This document shows, one piece after another, positions 1,546 through 23,951 of a stretch of DNA of 64,000 nucleotides. The notes under the pieces were generated by a model, which saw nothing but the letters and a program-made list of their open reading frames with translations, was not told the origin of the DNA and ran no database searches. The position numbers and the translations under genes are program-made. How positions within the stretch are numbered: the stretch's first letter is position 1; the number at the start of each line of letters is the position of its first letter. This stretch comes from Candidatus Saccharimonadota bacterium (GTDB lineage: Bacteria > Patescibacteriota > Saccharimonadia > Saccharimonadales > UBA4665): positions 62,001-126,000 of the forward strand of contig JAQGGT010000007.1 in assembly GCA_028289245.1 (NCBI GenBank), written 5' to 3'.

Positions 1546-2442
1546 TTATTTATTTTTGACTGCGGCGCGCAACTTGGCGCTGCGAGCTCGCGGGTTGGTA
1601 ACTATTTCGTTGGGTCCGGCTACGACCGGTCGCTTCGTCAGGAGTCGTAATTCGGCATCGTATCTATCCCCTGCTATGTCAGCCAGATATCGTTTAACAA
1701 GGCGATCCTCTAGGCTATGGAAACTTATAATGGCCAGGTGTCCGCCAGGGTTTAACAAACGCAACATGTTCGGTAAGGTCCGCTCGAGGAGCCCCAGTTC
1801 ATCATTGACGGCTATGCGCAATGCCTGGAAGGTTCTGGTCGCGGGGTGCGTTTTGCTATACCCTGGCCACTGTCGTGCAACAATTTCTGCTAATTCGGAA
1901 GTCGTGGAGAGCGGTCTGGCTTCAGCGATGGCATGGGCAATTTGCTTGGCCTTCGGTTCTTCGCCGTAGTGCTTTAGAATGTCGGTCAGTTCAGATTCGC
2001 TATAGGTATTTACCATTATTTCTGCGGTCAGCAGTTGCCGGCGATCCATGCGCATATCGAGTGGTCCCGATTCGCTAAACATGAAACCGCGATTGGCTTG
2101 GTTTAGATGTGGTGATGATACGCCAAGGTCGGCCAAAATCATGTCGAATTGTAGTCCGTCATCCACCAGTTGTTGGCTGGCTGTGTAAAAGTCGTCGTTC
2201 ATGATTCGGGGACTGCTTCCCTGGAAGACAGTGCGTAGTTCCTGCACGGCATTCTCGTCACGGTCGACAAGTACAGCCCTGTCGGGGGCGTGGGTATGAG
2301 AAATAATCGCCGAAGCGTGGCCACCGTAGCCGGCCGTCAGATCGAGGTAGCTATCCTCGGGTTCTGGTGCCAAATACGTAATGACTTCGTCGAGCAATAC
2401 AGGTACATGTAGTTGGTTATTTTGGTTTTTGTTTTGGTGCAT
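1546..2442 (-). CDS. rsmH: 16S rRNA (cytosine1402-N4)-methyltransferase RsmH (MraW)
   Basis: SAM-dependent methyltransferase that N4-methylates C1402 in the ribosomal P site. Seen: the N-terminal H-V-P-V-L-L-D-E-V, the SAM loop D-L-T-A-G-Y-G-G-H-A (about 35-44), and the motif-IV region D-L-G-V-S-S-P-H-L near residue 106. The C-terminal block S-F-H-S-L-E-D-R is diagnostic. At 298 aa it is near the family length (about 310). It follows mraZ as in most dcw clusters but with an unusual 347-bp gap. The first codons themselves contain the A/C-rich repeat found in the upstream gap, giving an Asn/Gln/Lys-rich N-terminus; no strong SD is seen. Confidence 0.96.
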   Translation of the reverse strand: MHQNKNQNNQLHVPVLLDEVITYLAPEPEDSYLDLTAGYGGHASAIISHTHAPDRAVLVDRDENAVQELRTVFQGSSPRIMNDDFYTASQQLVDDGLQFDMILADLGVSSPHLNQANRGFMFSESGPLDMRMDRRQLLTAEIMVNTYSESELTDILKHYGEEPKAKQIAHAIAEARPLSTTSELAEIVARQWPGYSKTHPATRTFQALRIAVNDELGLLERTLPNMLRLLNPGGHLAIISFHSLEDRLVKRYLADIAGDRYDAELRLLTKRPVVAGPNEIVTNPRARSAKLRAAVKNK

Positions 2443-2789
2443 CTATTCTTTGGTTTTTGTTTTTGAATACGAGATCACCTATTCAGCAGCCAACTTTTTG
2501 TTTTTTTGGATGGTTTTTGTTTTTGTGTAGACTACCGCTCATGTGTAAAAAAGGAACAGACAACTATCGCTAGTTGCCGAACTTTTTACGAGTTGTAGTC
2601 AAAAGTGTTTGAGAGACTTATGTGTGAGGTGGAGTTTTGGGAGGTGTTTTACAAGGTGCGAGGGTTTTTTTGGTGGTTTGCCCCAAGGTGCCACTGTTGA
2701 CTGCCGAATAGCTGAACTCGAAGGTGTTCGTGTTTGTTTTAGTTGTTAAGGAGCGTCTACAATTTGGGTTTGTGCTGCCTGAGCCGCCC
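2443..2789 (-). other. 347-bp mraZ-rsmH intergenic region with A/C-rich repeats
   Basis: No credible gene. Read on the minus strand it carries copies of an A/C-rich element, CAAAAACAAAAACC, at about 2450-2466 and 2507-2524, with variants at about 2484-2500 and 2726-2740. Another copy overlaps the first rsmH codons (about 2420-2438) and one lies in the mraZ leader (about 3184-3197). A short inverted repeat, CAACTA/TAGTTG, lies at 2561-2566/2571-2576. No intrinsic terminator is visible. It may be a long unstructured 5' leader for rsmH or a processing region. Confidence 0.55.
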
Positions 2790-3161
2790 TTAGTCGGATA
2801 GTTCAGCGGCGACGATACGCCAGTACTGGCCTACGCCAATGGCGACTACGTCGCGGTCGATCGACGCGTAATCAAGCAAATGTTGCTCGAGCGTCACTCG
2901 TCCCTGCTTGCCGTCCGGTCGCACTTCGACTTTGCCTTTGCGGAATTGCACGTTTAGATCGGCAATGCGCTCGTCGAGAATGTCGCCGGCCAATCGTGGC
3001 TCGACTAAGTTGTTCCACACATCCATTGGATAGAGGTGCAGATATTTGCCAAAGCCTCGCGTAACGACTGCGCCGCTCGCAAACTGGTCTCGAAGTTCGG
3101 TCGGTATAGTTAACCGCCGCTTGTCATCCAGCTTCCGTTCAAAGTAGTCTACGGTGGCCAT
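2790..3161 (-). CDS. mraZ: Transcriptional regulator MraZ
   Basis: DNA-binding regulator of the dcw cluster with two AbrB-like (MraZ) half-domains. The first repeat contains the typical D-D-K-R-R-L-T-I-P segment (about residues 12-20); the second (about 70-115) has G-R-V-T-L. The protein is 123 aa, slightly short for the family (about 140), and its C-terminus ends just after the second fold. The ATG at 3161 has an SD (AGGGAG, 3 nt away). Four MraZ-box-like repeats lie 58-103 bp upstream, consistent with autoregulation as known in E. coli and Mollicutes. Confidence 0.93.
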   Translation of the reverse strand: MATVDYFERKLDDKRRLTIPTELRDQFASGAVVTRGFGKYLHLYPMDVWNNLVEPRLAGDILDERIADLNVQFRKGKVEVRPDGKQGRVTLEQHLLDYASIDRDVVAIGVGQYWRIVAAELSD

Positions 3162-3218
3162 TGGCTCCCTGTTAATTGCTAGTGGTTTTTGTTTTGTAGG
3201 AGGTTGCCTTTTTTGGCT

Positions 3219-3264
3219 ACCCCGTTTTACCCACTAACAAGAGCATACTACCCACGCTCACCCC
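3219..3264 (-). promoter_or_regulatory. Putative MraZ operator: two pairs of (T/G)GGGT boxes
   Basis: On the minus strand the boxes are GGGGT (3260-3264), TGGGT (3250-3254), TGGGT (3229-3233) and GGGGT (3219-3223). Within each pair they repeat every 10 bp, and the two pairs are 21 bp apart, so all could sit on one DNA face. Known MraZ sites in E. coli are TGGGN direct repeats with 5-bp spacers, which this matches. The operator role is inferred. Confidence 0.6.
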
Positions 3265-3282
3265 CCGCAATACACTTTAAGC

Positions 3283-3310
3283 AAAAAAGGTGGTGTTTTT
3301 GACACCACCT
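3283..3310 (-). terminator. Intrinsic terminator after the 198-aa exported protein gene
   Basis: Arms AGGTGGTG (3288-3295) and CACCACCT (3303-3310) with a short loop. On the minus strand the stem is followed by TTTTTT (3288-3283). It ends the 4220-3351 operon and insulates the mraZ promoter. Confidence 0.88.
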
Positions 3311-3350
3311 CTTATTTAGGATCTTACTGACCCCTGTTAACGCTTATGCT

Positions 3351-3947
3351 TTACTTTGCGTTGGGGCCATTAAGTTGAGCGACCGGCATAGTGTAGCTGA
3401 ACGACTGGCCGTTTTCGGACGCTGTCAGCTGGCCGTCACCGCCTAGGGTTACGGGATACGAATCACCGCGATACACTTTAGCGTCCTGGTAAAATGCGGC
3501 GTGATCCTGCTCCGAGGCAGCCGTAAAGTCGACAAACTCGACACCTGCTTTGACGATCGCGTCGGGGCTCGTTAATTTACTAGCATCTGTACCAGCGGGC
3601 ATTACCGCGTACCAAGTGTGACCATCTTTGGTGGGCACGTGCGGCGCACTGCCAAAACTCATGGTGACACCCTGAGGAACGGTATCAACCACATTATTGG
3701 CTTCGCCATCGTTAGAAGTACCGTCGAGGTGTTCGGGGCTACTACGTAGCTTTGTGTGCGGCTGGAGAACGATAACACCATTAGCAGCGGCGTCAATTCG
3801 ATTTAGCGCCTGACGGGCAGTTTCGGCCTGTACCTTACGTTCACCGTGCTCTGCGCTCTGGTTAACGTGGTTCAATACCACGCCACCGAGTGCGATTGCC
3901 GTCGCAACAGCTAAGGCACCGCCTACTTTTTCTTTAGTGATTTTCAT
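3351..3947 (-). CDS. Membrane-anchored exported protein, unknown function
   Basis: A 198-aa protein with a short basic start and one hydrophobic segment (about residues 8-26), then a charged linker and a mostly beta-type polar domain. The segment with K-L-R-S-S-P near residue 68 resembles the opening of SH3-like cell-wall domains, which is only suggestive. No catalytic motif. It has an SD (AAAGGAG about 10 nt before ATG), is second in a two-gene operon with another exported protein 15 bp upstream, and is followed by a clear terminator. Confidence 0.72.
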   Translation of the reverse strand: MKITKEKVGGALAVATAIALGGVVLNHVNQSAEHGERKVQAETARQALNRIDAAANGVIVLQPHTKLRSSPEHLDGTSNDGEANNVVDTVPQGVTMSFGSAPHVPTKDGHTWYAVMPAGTDASKLTSPDAIVKAGVEFVDFTAASEQDHAAFYQDAKVYRGDSYPVTLGGDGQLTASENGQSFSYTMPVAQLNGPNAK

Positions 3948-3962
3948 ACTATTCGTGCTCCT

Positions 3963-4220
3963 TTACAAGCTTGCCGAGCGCGATGGGGTGCGCTGCGAGG
4001 TGTTATAGCTAATGTAATGTGGACCTGATTCCTCGCGCTCGCGGCGCTGAGCAGTCATGCCCTCTTCGCGGGGTGTTTCCTGGGCGGTAACGGCTGCGAG
4101 TACCGGCTCAGGCAAAACGATAGTGCTCAGCACTGCGGCGGTAGTCATAACTGTTAAGCCTAGGCTGTGGGCGAAGTCTTTAACATTTTGGTTTGTATTT
4201 TTGGTGTTTATGTTTACCAT
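3963..4220 (-). CDS. Small secreted protein with cleavable signal peptide
   Basis: 85 residues from the ATG at 4220. A hydrophobic stretch (about residues 18-40) ends in a V-L-A-A-like cleavage site, leaving a mature peptide of about 45 residues rich in Arg, Glu and Ser. The frame is open further upstream to a TTG at 4259, but that TTG is the -35 box TTGACA of a good promoter, so 4220 is the better start. First gene of a two-gene exported-protein operon. Function unknown. Confidence 0.62.
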   Translation of the reverse strand: MVNINTKNTNQNVKDFAHSLGLTVMTTAAVLSTIVLPEPVLAAVTAQETPREEGMTAQRREREESGPHYISYNTSQRTPSRSASL

Positions 4221-4230
4221 AACAGTAATC

Positions 4231-4259
4231 ACTCTACCAAATATTGCGGGTTTTGTCAA
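4231..4259 (-). promoter_or_regulatory. Promoter of the small secreted-protein operon (leaderless)
   Basis: -35 TTGACA (4254-4259), 17-bp spacer, -10 TAGAGT (4231-4236); the ATG at 4220 is 10 nt after the -10. Predicted 5' UTR is 0-5 nt. Confidence 0.68.
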
Positions 4260-4304
4260 GGTTATGCTTTGAGAGTATCCACCTTCTCTCTTTTGTAGTA
4301 TAGC

Positions 4305-5297
4305 TTAGTTTTTTGGGATAGTTTTGAGGATGGCCTGGGCAACCTTTTCGGCGTCGTGACGAATGAGTGAGCGGTTGATGAAGCTGTCGTTAGGGTCGCG
4401 GGCGATTGGCGCTGTCGACAAAAAATCGCCACCAACGGCGTGATAGCTGGCCTGCTGGAGCGCTTGCTCATCGATGGCGACTGGGTATTCATGCTCGAGG
4501 GCGTACTTTTCGAGCAGCGGGCCGGTCGGCAGGTTGGTGTTGTAGAGCACGGTGTCGATAATGCCGGCGGCCGTCAAGCGCTCAATCTCGCTGGCATAAT
4601 CGTGGACGGCAAAGCCGGCGGTGTGATTGGGCTTATTAACGAGGTTACAGACAAAGACTATGGGCGCGGCGGTCTGTTGCAAGACTTCGGCCACGCCATC
4701 AACGATAAGCGCTGGAACTAACGAGGCATAGAGGTTGCCCGGGGCTATCACCACGATGTCGGCGTCGAGAATCGCCTGGCGTGCGTCGGCAGTAATGGTA
4801 GCCGGCGTATCCAGATAAAGATCGGGGTTACTCCTAGCGGGAATGGCGGTAAGCTCGACGGCTCGCTGGCCGTGAATGTCTTCGCCGTCGAGGCGCAGGC
4901 TGAGCTTGCAATCGTCGAGGGTGATCGGCAGTACCCTGCCCTGGATGTTGAGTACTTCGCCCGCCATGCGCACGGCGTCATCGAAGCGGCTAGTCATGGT
5001 CTCGACGGCGCTGAGGAAGATATTGCCAAAGGAGTGACCTTCAAAGCTGCCGGTGGGAAAGCGAAAGGTAAATAAGTCGCGTAGTTCCTGTGAGGCATTG
5101 CTGAGCGCCACCAAGCATTGGCGAACATCGCCTGGAGGTAAGACGCCGAGCTCGTCGCGGAGCACACCGGTGGAACCACCGTCGTCGGCCATGTTGACGA
5201 TGGCCGAGATATTCGGCGTGTAGTTTTTGAGCGCCTGCAGCAAGGTGTAACTGCCGGTGCCGCCGCCGATAAGCGCGATTTTGGGTGTGGGTTTCAT
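4305..5297 (-). CDS. yvcK: YvcK/CofD-family UDP-sugar-binding protein (gluconeogenesis factor)
   Basis: YvcK proteins bind UDP-GlcNAc and help route carbon into cell-wall synthesis; the related CofD is a lactyl-phosphate transferase. Seen: N-terminal I-G-G-G-T-G (about 10-15), N-M-A-D-D-G-G-S-T-G near 35-45, L-P-P-G-D-V-R (about 53-59), G-H-S-F-G-N near 86, and the A-P-G-N-L-Y block in the middle. At 330 aa it is the usual YvcK length. It is monocistronic here, not in the usual rapZ-yvcK-whiA order, although dcw genes lie close by. Confidence 0.9.
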   Translation of the reverse strand: MKPTPKIALIGGGTGSYTLLQALKNYTPNISAIVNMADDGGSTGVLRDELGVLPPGDVRQCLVALSNASQELRDLFTFRFPTGSFEGHSFGNIFLSAVETMTSRFDDAVRMAGEVLNIQGRVLPITLDDCKLSLRLDGEDIHGQRAVELTAIPARSNPDLYLDTPATITADARQAILDADIVVIAPGNLYASLVPALIVDGVAEVLQQTAAPIVFVCNLVNKPNHTAGFAVHDYASEIERLTAAGIIDTVLYNTNLPTGPLLEKYALEHEYPVAIDEQALQQASYHAVGGDFLSTAPIARDPNDSFINRSLIRHDAEKVAQAILKTIPKN

Positions 5298-5304
5298 ACC
5301 TTTT

Positions 5305-5310
5305 ATGATA
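5305..5310 (-). promoter_or_regulatory. Extended -10 of yvcK promoter (leaderless)
   Basis: TGC-TATCAT ending 7 nt before the yvcK ATG at 5297; -35 weak. Confidence 0.5.
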
Positions 5311-5313
5311 GCA

Positions 5314-6189
5314 CTAGCTCGCCGGGGCTAGCGCGTCCAGCTGGCTGAGCTCTTCGGCACTGAGCTCGAGGTCGGCAGCAGCGATGTTGTCCTGGAGATG
5401 CTCGAGAGACGAGGTACCGGGAATGGGCAAAATAACCGGCGAGTGCGCCAGCAACCACGCGAGGGCGACTTGGTGAGCGGTAGCATCGTGAGCCTCAGCT
5501 ACCTTGGTCACGGTGTCGTGTTGCAGATCCTTCTGGCCGCCCCCAACCGGGAAATATGGGATGAAGGCAATATTGTTTTGCTCGCACAGCCTGAGAACGT
5601 CCTCGTGTTCGCGGTTGAAGACATTGTAATTGTTTTGCACGCTGACGAATTTGCCAAGTTGCATGGCCTGTTCGAAATGTTCGGGCTCAATATTGCTGAG
5701 GCCAATGTGACGAATTTTGCCTTCTTTTTGTAGCTCGAGGAGCGCCTTAAACGAATCAGCAAACGGCACATTCTTGTCGACCGTGTGAAGCTGGTAAAGA
5801 TCAATACGGTTAAGTTTGAGCCGACGAAGGCTGGCCTCACATGCCTGGCGGAGATGTTCCGGGCTGCAATCGGCCGTCCAAATGCCTGGGCCACGACGTG
5901 TCATACCGCCTTTGGTGGCGATGACGAGACCATCATAGGGCGCCAGCGTTTCGGCGAGTAAGTCCTCCGACGTTTCCGGCCCATAGGCGTCAGCTGTATC
6001 GATAAGATTGACGTCAAGTTCGATAGCCTCGAGAAGTATCTTTTGGGCAAGCTCGTGATCATCGAACGCGCCCCAGACACCCTGCCCGGTGAGACGCATG
6101 GCGCCGAAGCCTAGGCGATTAATGTGAAAATCGCCGACCATGACGGTGCCGGCGTTGAGGGCCGAGACTTTACCGAGCGAGTCAGTCAT
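5314..6189 (-). CDS. Aldo/keto reductase
   Basis: NAD(P)H-dependent oxidoreductase with a TIM-barrel fold, 291 aa. Seen: G-F-G-A-M-R-L-T near residue 28, the catalytic D-T-A-D-A-Y-G block (about 65, Asp and Tyr of the tetrad), K at A-T-K-G-G (about 93), L-Y-Q-L-H (the His) near 133, and I-P-I-P-G-T-S at the C-terminus for cofactor phosphate. Its ATG overlaps the stop of the MBL hydrolase by 4 nt, so the two are translationally coupled. Substrate unknown. Confidence 0.93.
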   Translation of the reverse strand: MTDSLGKVSALNAGTVMVGDFHINRLGFGAMRLTGQGVWGAFDDHELAQKILLEAIELDVNLIDTADAYGPETSEDLLAETLAPYDGLVIATKGGMTRRGPGIWTADCSPEHLRQACEASLRRLKLNRIDLYQLHTVDKNVPFADSFKALLELQKEGKIRHIGLSNIEPEHFEQAMQLGKFVSVQNNYNVFNREHEDVLRLCEQNNIAFIPYFPVGGGQKDLQHDTVTKVAEAHDATAHQVALAWLLAHSPVILPIPGTSSLEHLQDNIAAADLELSAEELSQLDALAPAS

Positions 6190-13722: not shown

Positions 13723-14112
13723 TTATTTGAGAATCAAGAAGGTGACGACGCTAACGAGCGTAGTAATGAAAGTACCCCAAATGAGGTCAATAATAGTGAT
13801 AACTTTGGGCCATTTATCGACTGTTGACTGGTTAGTTAGATCGTAGGTCGCATACATCGCCAGCCCGAGCAGCGCACCGTGCCCCAGGGCGTAGCTCAGC
13901 TTGCCGGTGCCGAGCGCTGGGTTCAGCACAAACACCACGATGCCTAGAATGTAGAGTAGATAGAAAGCCACGGCTGCTGTTACATCGGGCTTGTCGCGCA
14001 GCAAATAGCCCAGCTTTTTCTTATAAAACTTGTTAGCAATCACCACGAGCTACACCGAGTCGATAATGGCGAATAGCACGCCAACCAGCAAATAATGTCC
14101 TAAGAAATCCAT
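13723..14112 (-). pseudogene. DUF2177 membrane protein gene interrupted by an in-frame TAG
   Basis: Reading from the ATG at 14112 gives 20 residues ending I-I-D-S-V, then TAG at 14050-14052, then L-V-V-I-A-N-K-F-Y-K-K-K-L-G-Y in the same frame to a normal stop, about 129 codons in all. DUF2177 proteins are about 130 aa with four membrane helices and a conserved D-x-x-W-L in the first helix; the TAG falls exactly at that Trp, so one base change (TGG to TAG) explains it. A 107-aa remnant could start at GTG 14046 but would lose the first helix. The rest (Y-A-T-Y-D-L-T-N, I-D-L-I-W-G-T) is intact. Nonsense mutation, strain polymorphism or sequencing error are all possible. Confidence 0.8.
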
Positions 14113-16061: not shown

Positions 16062-16754
16062 TTAGATCCGGATAAAGGTGTTGAGCGCCGTCTTGATGAG
16101 GATTGCCAGCTCCGGCAGTAAGCCGGTCATGCCCTGCACTTGTTGCAGCACGTGCGGGGTATTACCGCTAAAAAACAGCCGCAGGCTCTTGATGTGGTCG
16201 GCCGTCAGGGCGCCGTCGGGCGAGGGGTCGAAGGCCATCGAATCGTAGTCAAAGCGGTATTTTTGGTCAGCCGTCAGCTTTTCGCCGGAGAGATCGGTGT
16301 ACAGGTTTGGGGTATGCCCGGCTATACGCACTAGCTGGCCAGCAAACCAGATACGGATCAGATCAATCGAAATCCGGGCGTCATTGAGAGCTACAAAGGC
16401 CTGCTCCAGCAGCTCAAAATACTCCGGCTCGGGTTCGTCTTCGGTGGCACGATGTAGCTGTTTGGTGAGTTCGTAGCCCAGCATAGTGCGGTTGACGTCA
16501 CGGACGATGTCACCATAGTGCGTCAGCAGCCGGGCGCTGATCATGGTGCCGATCTCGCCGCGGCCGCGGATAAAGGTAATGTCGCTGATACTAAACAGTT
16601 CTACTCCGCCGGCCAATTTGCTTTTGACGCGCCGGACCCCGCGGGCCATCAGGCGAAGCTTGCCTTGATCGGGCGTTAGTAAGGTAATAATTCTGTCAGC
16701 TTCACCATAATCGGTGCGGCTGAGGATAATGCCGCGGGTCTGGATTTGTTTCAT
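16062..16754 (-). CDS. recO: DNA repair protein RecO
   Basis: Loads RecA with RecR at gaps in recombination repair. 230 aa with the N-terminal OB fold: T-R-G-I-I-L-S-R-T-D-Y-G-E-A-D-R (about 6-21), L-M-A-R-G-V-R-R-V-K-S-K near 35-46, then an all-helical C-terminal domain. The zinc-binding cysteines present in many RecO proteins are absent. The ATG overlaps the receiver-like gene by 4 nt, so recO is third in an operon with two degenerate two-component genes. Confidence 0.88.
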   Translation of the reverse strand: MKQIQTRGIILSRTDYGEADRIITLLTPDQGKLRLMARGVRRVKSKLAGGVELFSISDITFIRGRGEIGTMISARLLTHYGDIVRDVNRTMLGYELTKQLHRATEDEPEPEYFELLEQAFVALNDARISIDLIRIWFAGQLVRIAGHTPNLYTDLSGEKLTADQKYRFDYDSMAFDPSPDGALTADHIKSLRLFFSGNTPHVLQQVQGMTGLLPELAILIKTALNTFIRI

Positions 16755-17143
16755 GACGCCGGCAAGGGGTTAGTCAGGCGGCGGATGGCCGACAGCAATG
16801 TGGCCAGCGTCGTTGAGGGCTTGTAGTAGTACTGCTCAACGCCCAGCTCGCGGTTGAGCAGCTGCCAACTACGGCTAAACTCGCTGGGCGGCACTTGGCT
16901 ATTTATGACTACCGGCACGTCGTGCCAATCATCATACGACCGAAATTCATACAAAAACTCAATGCCGGAGTGCCGGATGAGCTGCAACTCGGCTACCACC
17001 ACATCAGGGCGCTTTTCGTCGGCCGCAAAAATGGCCGATTGGGCACTGGCGCACATCGTTACACTGTAGCCGTCGGCGATAAAGGCCCGTCGATAGGTAT
17101 CGGCCAGCACCCGATCCGGTTCGACGAGTAAAACGTGTTTCAT
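16751..17143 (-). CDS. Pseudo-receiver protein with Glu at the phosphorylation site
   Basis: 130 aa, one receiver domain, no output domain. N-terminal V-E-P-D acidic cluster (about 7-10), P-D-V-V-V-A-E-L-Q-L where the phosphoacceptor Asp should be (normally L-D-L) now reads A-E-L, then a conserved Ser (I-N-S) and Lys (Y-Y-Y-K-P). The Asp-to-Glu change is read directly (codon GAG). Such a site cannot be normally phosphorylated and may mimic the active state. It starts 1 nt into the stop of a degenerate kinase-like gene and precedes recO. Confidence 0.84.
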   Translation of the reverse strand: MKHVLLVEPDRVLADTYRRAFIADGYSVTMCASAQSAIFAADEKRPDVVVAELQLIRHSGIEFLYEFRSYDDWHDVPVVINSQVPPSEFSRSWQLLNRELGVEQYYYKPSTTLATLLSAIRRLTNPLPAS

Positions 17144-17853
17144 TAGATTAACTGCAGCTGGTGATTAGGTTGCAATGTCGTGCCCAGACCGTAGAGATTA
17201 TGGTGGCGCGAAGCTTTGAGAGTCAGCTGCATCGCCTTGAGGATAGCGTCAGCCACAAAGACCCCCGCCCCGGCAGTATGGGTGAGCGTACCGAGTGGCT
17301 GGCGGCTGGCACCAACCAGCGCCCGACCACCACGCAAGGCTTCACTGGTAAGCTGCTCGGTCTCGGAGTACAGTCCGGCCACGATGCCGTAGCGGCAGCG
17401 ATGAGCCGCCAGTTGCAATTTGAGTTGCGGCACCTCGAGCGCCGGCAGTGCTTCGATAAGCGCCGCCCCGAGGCTCACTAGCGCCGATTGCAAACCATGG
17501 CGGTTGGCCATAACAGTGCTGTAGCGGCCGCCGACATGCAGCTCGAGGTCAACCCCGTAGCCGCGGGCCAGCTTACTGAGTTCGTGGCCGCTGTCGTAGA
17601 GAACCGAGGACACCGAGATCGGTTCAAGCTCCAGCTGGTCTTGGTCGAGACTGAGGCGGACACCCAAAACGTAATTATCGATTAATCGTAGCGCCGTGTC
17701 GGCAGTGGTTTGCATGGCGGCTAAATCGGCTTTACCGGCCAGCTGGCCTAGCTCGGCTTGGCGAGCGAGTTGTAAGAGAGGCATTTTAAGTTGTTCGGCG
17801 ACCGTAACTAACAGTTGCTGTGACAAAATTGGCGCCGATGCATCGCCTATCAT
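17143..17853 (-). CDS. Degenerate cytoplasmic histidine-kinase-like protein
   Basis: 236 aa with no membrane segment or sensor domain. The first helices resemble HisKA: A-E-Q-L-K-M-P-L aligns with the usual S-H-E-L-R-T-P-L, so the phosphorylated His is replaced by Glu. The ATPase-like part keeps the fold pattern (helix with L-x-x-A-L-V-S-L, a late G-A-G-V segment) but lacks the N-box Asn and the D-x-G-x-G loop, so ATP binding and kinase activity are unlikely. Overlaps the pseudo-receiver by 1 nt; probably a scaffold pair. Family assignment is by eye. Confidence 0.7.
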   Translation of the reverse strand: MIGDASAPILSQQLLVTVAEQLKMPLLQLARQAELGQLAGKADLAAMQTTADTALRLIDNYVLGVRLSLDQDQLELEPISVSSVLYDSGHELSKLARGYGVDLELHVGGRYSTVMANRHGLQSALVSLGAALIEALPALEVPQLKLQLAAHRCRYGIVAGLYSETEQLTSEALRGGRALVGASRQPLGTLTHTAGAGVFVADAILKAMQLTLKASRHHNLYGLGTTLQPNHQLQLI

Positions 17854-23285: not shown

Positions 23286-23951
23286 TTACGGAGAGAAGCT
23301 AAAGTTGGGCAAGATGATGTTGTTGAAATCGGAAATATATTGCGCACCCTCGGTCCAAACTTCGATGGTTTTGTCGCGCAATGGCAGGACTACCATCGAG
23401 ACCGTGTGATTGGTGGTGAGACTGCCCTCAACACGAACGCCGATGGCGCTGGGAACTTTGGGCAAGGCATAGGGCGCAACCGTAATCTTGCCGCTCTGCT
23501 GGCGGTCACGGAAGTCCGCCAAGACAGAGCTATAAGCCCGGCCGATGACTTGGTAGCGGAGGGCGAAAGTTGAATTCGGGTCGGTAGCGGTGGGGACGGT
23601 CTGCGGATTGGCAAAACCATCGAGCTGCGAACCATTTGAGCCCGAAGTACTGACGTAATTACTCCAGGTTTTGGGGTACAGCACGACCAGACTGCCGAGC
23701 GCCTCTGGGCCGGTATAGGTCCGGAGCGGGTTTTTCTCGGCTTGGGCGAACTGTGTATCTTTTTCCGTGCTCTCTTGCTGCTTCGCGATGGTTACGGCGG
23801 CGCTGACTTTCGCGTCGACGTTATTTTTGTAATCCTGTTTGCCGGAATAGGCCCAGCCGGCAAAACCGAGCGCGGCAATCAGCAAGAGACTGACCAACAC
23901 CAATGGTATTAGCAAACTATCGATGTGACCATCTTGGTTATGCTTTGACAT
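23286..23951 (-). CDS. Membrane-anchored exported protein, unknown
   Basis: 221 aa. Short polar N-terminus, one membrane helix (about 14-35), a charged linker, then an exported alpha/beta domain of about 150 residues with V-V-L-Y-P-K-T-W-S-N-Y-V near residue 89, reminiscent of PsbP-like folds but not decisive. No cysteine or catalytic motif. Monocistronic with a full leaderless promoter. Likely a cell-surface protein. Confidence 0.7.
   Translation of the reverse strand: MSKHNQDGHIDSLLIPLVLVSLLLIAALGFAGWAYSGKQDYKNNVDAKVSAAVTIAKQQESTEKDTQFAQAEKNPLRTYTGPEALGSLVVLYPKTWSNYVSTSGSNGSQLDGFANPQTVPTATDPNSTFALRYQVIGRAYSSVLADFRDRQQSGKITVAPYALPKVPSAIGVRVEGSLTTNHTVSMVVLPLRDKTIEVWTEGAQYISDFNNIILPNFSFSP

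Follow-up and report, generated by a model that had tools for sequence, protein, structure and literature searches.

The window, a 64,000-nucleotide stretch of a contig from a Candidatus Saccharimonadota bacterium, carries on its reverse strand a kinase-like gene, a receiver gene and recO, each overlapping the next. The kinase-like gene (17143–17853) encodes a soluble protein of 236 aa with a DHp hairpin and a CA domain, which has neither a sensor part nor a membrane segment; the assignment draws on the open reading frame, the AlphaFold2 fold, matches in the PDB and orthologues. Its stop overlaps the start of a gene for a single-domain pseudo-receiver of 130 aa (16751–17143) in the sequence TAATG, and the latter overlaps recO (16062–16754; RecO_N, 8.5e-22), the conserved partner gene of the operon, by 4 bases. 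A first-pass annotation had placed a kinase-receiver pair at 16751–17853, and both open reading frames are indeed present there. The same strand also encodes a DUF2177 membrane protein (13723–14046, 2.3e-37).

The receiver matched Pfam Response_reg (PF00072) over the cut-off, at 1.9e-9, and a Pfam search of the kinase-like protein returned no match. An AlphaFold2 model of the latter, built with 93 aligned orthologues, gave a DHp hairpin and a CA domain (pLDDT 90, pTM 0.88), with HK853 and the DivL pseudokinase as its best PDB matches in Foldseek. The DHp hairpin and GHKL CA domain of the HisKA histidine kinase fold are therefore present. The receiver was modelled at pLDDT 97 with DivK as its best PDB match, so that Pfam, AlphaFold2 and the PDB match agree on a receiver fold; structure prediction, proposed earlier as a check on whether either fold exists, thus returned both confidently. 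The last residues of the kinase model are of lower confidence and form a short helical turn, and hence packing of this tail on the kinase itself is possible.

The residues needed for phosphotransfer are gone from both proteins. Where active orthologues read A-H-E-L-K-x-P-L, the window kinase reads A-E20-Q-L-K-M-P-L (codon of Glu20, 17794–17796, reverse strand), and its N, G1 and G2 boxes are SLGAA, SET and GAGV against NFxDN, DYG and GLGL. Thus the phosphoacceptor His and the ATP boxes that mark HisKA membership, present in active orthologues, are absent. The receiver site is V-A-E52-L (codon of Glu52, 16988–16990, reverse strand) rather than L-D-x-L, and the acidic pair is EPD rather than EDD; the conserved Lys is kept as Lys108 (16820–16822, reverse strand). 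Alignment with orthologues therefore bears out the earlier observations that Glu occupies both phosphoacceptor sites and that the ATP-binding boxes are decayed. Canonical kinases elsewhere in the same genome retain an intact SHELRTPL, which, together with the agreeing orthologues, rules out genome-wide decay or sequencing error.

Of 93 genomes in the same family, 89 contain the kinase-like protein, nearly always as a single copy and without internal stops. With its profile, matches were obtained in 391 of 393 genomes from across the order, some of them to other kinases. Because the profile also picks up ordinary kinases, orthologues were defined as short open reading frames with a profile match to near their end and a receiver alongside, which gave 191 non-redundant loci with a receiver found at 187. 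Short kinases of other Patescibacteria (family f84 and others) were rejected as orthologues because the tail described below and recO are missing. Within the genus, dN/dS was 0.06–0.17 among those comparisons for which dS was computable. The pair belongs to the near-universal core of the order and is not a product of local decay, and the earlier description of a coupled, signalling-dead pair holds, as the loss of phosphotransfer residues is accompanied by conservation of the pair across the family. With a kinase fold, no catalytic His, conservation and a receiver partner, the window protein is a pseudo-histidine kinase of the DivL-like kind.

The receiver gene is followed directly by recO in 182 of the 188 loci with room for it, as it is in the sister order; a few genomes do not have recO at this locus. 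On the other side, 177 loci have, immediately before the kinase gene, a gene for a protein of ~220 aa that apparently has a single membrane helix and an extracytoplasmic domain; a Pfam search assigned it to no family. In the window this usual upstream neighbour is displaced by 5.4 kb, past ftsA, map and adk, to 23289–23951 on the reverse strand (own-genome match G000:C6:85289-85951, E 3.2e-85), and in the window's subclade ftsA stands in the position that the membrane protein occupies in relatives. A promoter and terminator scan of the interval between ftsA and the kinase gene found nothing. The possible division link that had been read from the ftsA neighbour is not supported by this comparison: ftsA lies upstream of the kinase in only 4 loci, all from the window's genus, and an FtsA partnership was rejected on this ground.

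Orthologues fall into active, dead and half-dead states. All 66 active orthologues have the His, the Asp and the Lys, together with nearly all of the ATP boxes, and their acidic pair is of the EDD type. The dead group, about 115 sampled orthologues that include the window's, has Glu at the phosphosite of the kinase in 92/115 and at that of the receiver in 101/115, an acidic pair of EPD in 93 and a retained Lys in 107/115. Glu is therefore dominant at both sites and is replaced in the other members by D, Y, Q, K, S, G or N in the kinase and by A, S, N or D in the receiver. The Glu20 site ranks only 41 of 220 columns for conservation within the dead clade. Across the 177 loci at which both genes were scored and a RecO sequence was present, both His and Asp occur in 65, neither in 104 and Asp without His in eight; His without Asp was never seen. 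In family f178 (L099, L119, L123, L125, L126) the kinase is dead at the His and the ATP boxes and the receiver Asp is kept, with the acidic pair broken to ESD, ETD or EAD; this family may be an intermediate or a differently repurposed state.

Phosphosite states were mapped on a RecO tree rooted with the sister order. The lineages at its base are active ones, which makes the dead state derived. Members of the window's dead group fall essentially into a single clade, with a support of only 44 and one active long-branch row nearby. A second coupled loss, in the six species of genus g59 (L045, L221–L225), is nested among active lineages with a clade support of 98. Here the His is replaced by Q, G or S and the Asp by S or G, which makes Glu the usual replacement and not an obligatory one; the ATP boxes are largely kept, and the protein is possibly a kinase-fold ATP binder that has no phosphoacceptor. 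An independent-pairs test of coupled loss had only two supported independent pairs to work with, too few for significance. The first-pass annotation had regarded orthologues with intact His and Asp as evidence against its reading; such orthologues do exist in other families, where they represent the ancestral state, and the finding for the window's lineage stands. In the dead clade the receiver has gained highly conserved positions in its alpha-3 region, HSGIEFLYEFRSYxDW (G 1.00, E 0.99, Y 0.99, S 0.95, W 0.92), a conservation that suggests a partner face. In the window this candidate face is HSGIEFLYEFRSYDDW, residues 58–73 of the receiver (16925–16972, reverse strand).

The best-defining feature of the family, absent from the first-pass annotation, is an invariant C-terminal tail of the clamp-binding type. 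A pentapeptide Q[LMITAS]x[LMFIW][LFVIMW] occurs within the last 18 residues of 188/191 kinase orthologues from 34 families, forming the exact C-terminus in 163, and the remaining three have close variants. The pattern was written after the tails had been seen, and the same test applied to neighbouring proteins as a control of specificity, not as a blind test, found it in 1/187 receivers, 3/178 RecO and 2/188 upstream proteins (0.5–2%). In the window the tail is QLQLI, residues 232–236 (17146–17160, reverse strand), which fits the relaxed clamp-motif pattern as the other orthologues do. Its Gln (Q232) is the only invariant column among the 93 aligned sequences and ranks first of 220 columns for conservation in the dead clade. 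The tail sits beyond the last CA strand, and in these genomes ordinary kinases stop at profile positions 213–215.

The bacterial clamp-binding consensus is a C-terminal QL(S/D)LF (PMC9690074), and orthologues from the sister order end in QLSLF, an exact match. Active families mostly end in QLSLL, and QASLF and QTALF are further variants among the tails. When position 2 is Ala, Thr or Ser, position 5 is aromatic in 7/10 tails (several of which share one genus), against 5/178 when position 2 is Leu, Met or Ile; this is expected for a peptide of the QxxLF type and favours the clamp reading. Counting against it, most tails of the window's clade have Val or Ile at position 5, and these residues should bind the clamp more weakly than Phe or Leu. 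DnaE carries QTD(L/I)F, QADLF or QIDIF in 10 of the 11 genomes checked and QVDLF at the same place in the eleventh. These motifs lie at the usual place in the polymerase, and so the clamps of these genomes use motifs of this kind. DinB had no clear C-terminal clamp motif in most of these genomes, though one has QLSLI. Taken together, we consider it very probable, from the form and conservation of the tail sequence, that the kinase tail binds the sliding clamp. In the literature searched, which held few subscription papers, no paper described a histidine kinase attached to the clamp through a motif of this sort.

We propose that the pair is a two-component module tethered to the replisome and tied to recombinational repair, which in the window's lineage would work independently of phosphorylation; on balance we regard this as the probable reading. 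The sequences show a soluble kinase-fold protein and a single-domain receiver, in a conserved operon with recO, that ancestrally had the His, the Asp and an intact ATP site; the window's clade has lost the two catalytic sites with the proteins remaining under selection, and the kinase keeps its invariant tail. Through its two tails, a kinase dimer would dock in the peptide clefts of DnaN, the sliding clamp, and the module would in consequence ride on replicating or gapped DNA. The receiver would still sit on the DHp helices, in the manner of HK853-RR468 or DivL-DivK; such docking on a dead kinase is likely. The pseudo-active site of the receiver, Glu52 with Lys108, may hold it in one fixed state. 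In a less sure step, the alpha-3 face would contact a repair factor, with RecO as the first candidate, which would make the pair a clamp-bound adaptor and its ancestor a clamp-bound phosphotransfer pair. The RecO link derives from synteny, and we give a RecO role of the module an even chance. More tentatively, and at slightly less than even odds, the family as a whole may represent replication-coupled signalling that is core to Saccharibacteria, in which a clamp-riding histidine kinase controls recombination through its receiver and RecO and which has been converted at least twice to a phosphorylation-free adaptor.

Other explanations account for parts of these data. The tail could be a structural or receiver-docking element of a cytoplasmic pseudokinase switch akin to DivL-DivK that has no link to the clamp and is perhaps fed by the upstream membrane protein. 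The closest folds do include DivL and DivK, DivL works without kinase activity (PMC4211667), and most loci have, ahead of the kinase gene, the gene for a membrane protein that apparently bears an extracytoplasmic domain. However, a tail of this kind past the last CA strand is missing from the ordinary kinases of the same genomes, and the position preferences seen in the QASLF, QTALF and QLSLF variants follow those of clamp peptides, and we judge this explanation unlikely. A dead scaffold that Glu at both sites locks in a phospho-mimic state and that acts in cell division with FtsA, essentially the proposal of the first-pass annotation, is less likely still. In the dead clade Glu is the prevailing residue at both sites, at the Asp position it is a common pseudo-receiver state that can be phosphomimetic (PMC12632262), and ftsA adjoins the kinase gene in the window; however, the low rank of the kinase-site Glu, the Ala, Ser and Asn receivers, the Q/G/S genus that does without Glu, and the confinement of the ftsA adjacency to four loci all tell against it. 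A strict double phospho-mimic is weakened by the non-Glu members. What is left of the locked phospho-mimic idea is plausible for the receiver, where Glu52 and Lys108 are highly conserved, and is not required, given the non-Glu members and g59.

The loss of all ATP boxes and both phosphosites might also be read as a two-component system decaying under relaxed selection in a reduced genome. Retention in 89/93 genomes, the low dN/dS where it can be computed, the lack of internal stops and the newly conserved receiver positions leave such a relic highly improbable.

DivL-DivK of Caulobacter, the source of top PDB matches, is like the window pair in joining a His-replaced pseudo-histidine kinase to a single-domain receiver, and the function of DivL, independent of kinase activity, indicates that a pseudokinase can act by binding its receiver (PMC4211667). 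DivL, however, is polar, has PAS domains and reads phosphorylated DivK, whereas in the window the receiver is also dead, there is no sensor domain, and the kinase bears the C-terminal clamp-type motif that DivL-DivK does not have. HK853-RR468 of Thermotoga and ordinary HisKA systems share the DHp, CA and receiver folds with the window pair and all the catalytic residues with its active orthologues; compared with them, the window pair is without the His, the Asp, the second acidic residue, the ATP boxes and any sensor or membrane-spanning portion. Hda, MutS, DnaE and other clamp binders use pentapeptides of the QL(S/D)LF type (PMC9690074), such as lies at the C-terminus of the window protein, but Hda, MutS and DnaE are not two-component proteins. 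The window receiver resembles described pseudo-receivers in the change of the phospho-Asp to Glu, the retained Lys and the loss of one acidic position; unlike in those (PMC12632262), the partner kinase in the same operon has lost its His as well, and this at least twice.

The pair is a core gene module of an ultrasmall epibiotic lineage, almost all Saccharibacteria examined carrying it beside recO. The membrane and the cytoplasm are where two-component systems normally read their signals; a system attached to the clamp, if this holds, would take its input straight from the state of the chromosome. Moreover, the family forms a rare natural series of active, half-dead (kinase dead, receiver Asp kept) and fully dead pairs, with at least two independent losses, and so offers a direct way to ask what role the pair has once the phosphate is gone. 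Genetic tools exist for this lineage (PMC10633639), and the main text of that Tn-seq paper names no two-component gene.

Clamp-type ends were also seen outside the order. Two long kinases (1089 and 1108 aa; L314, region 2084–5351, and L315, 1766–5090), which come from another order of the class, are here named GAF-type from their sequence rather than from a Pfam run. Long kinases of the class end at profile positions 213–215, with these two as the only exceptions, bearing QLPLL and QLPLI and ending in QLPLLK and QLPLIE. Their catalytic residues are intact, as is the receiver encoded next to them, with recO nearby, and they may represent an ancestral form of the module that still bears a sensor.
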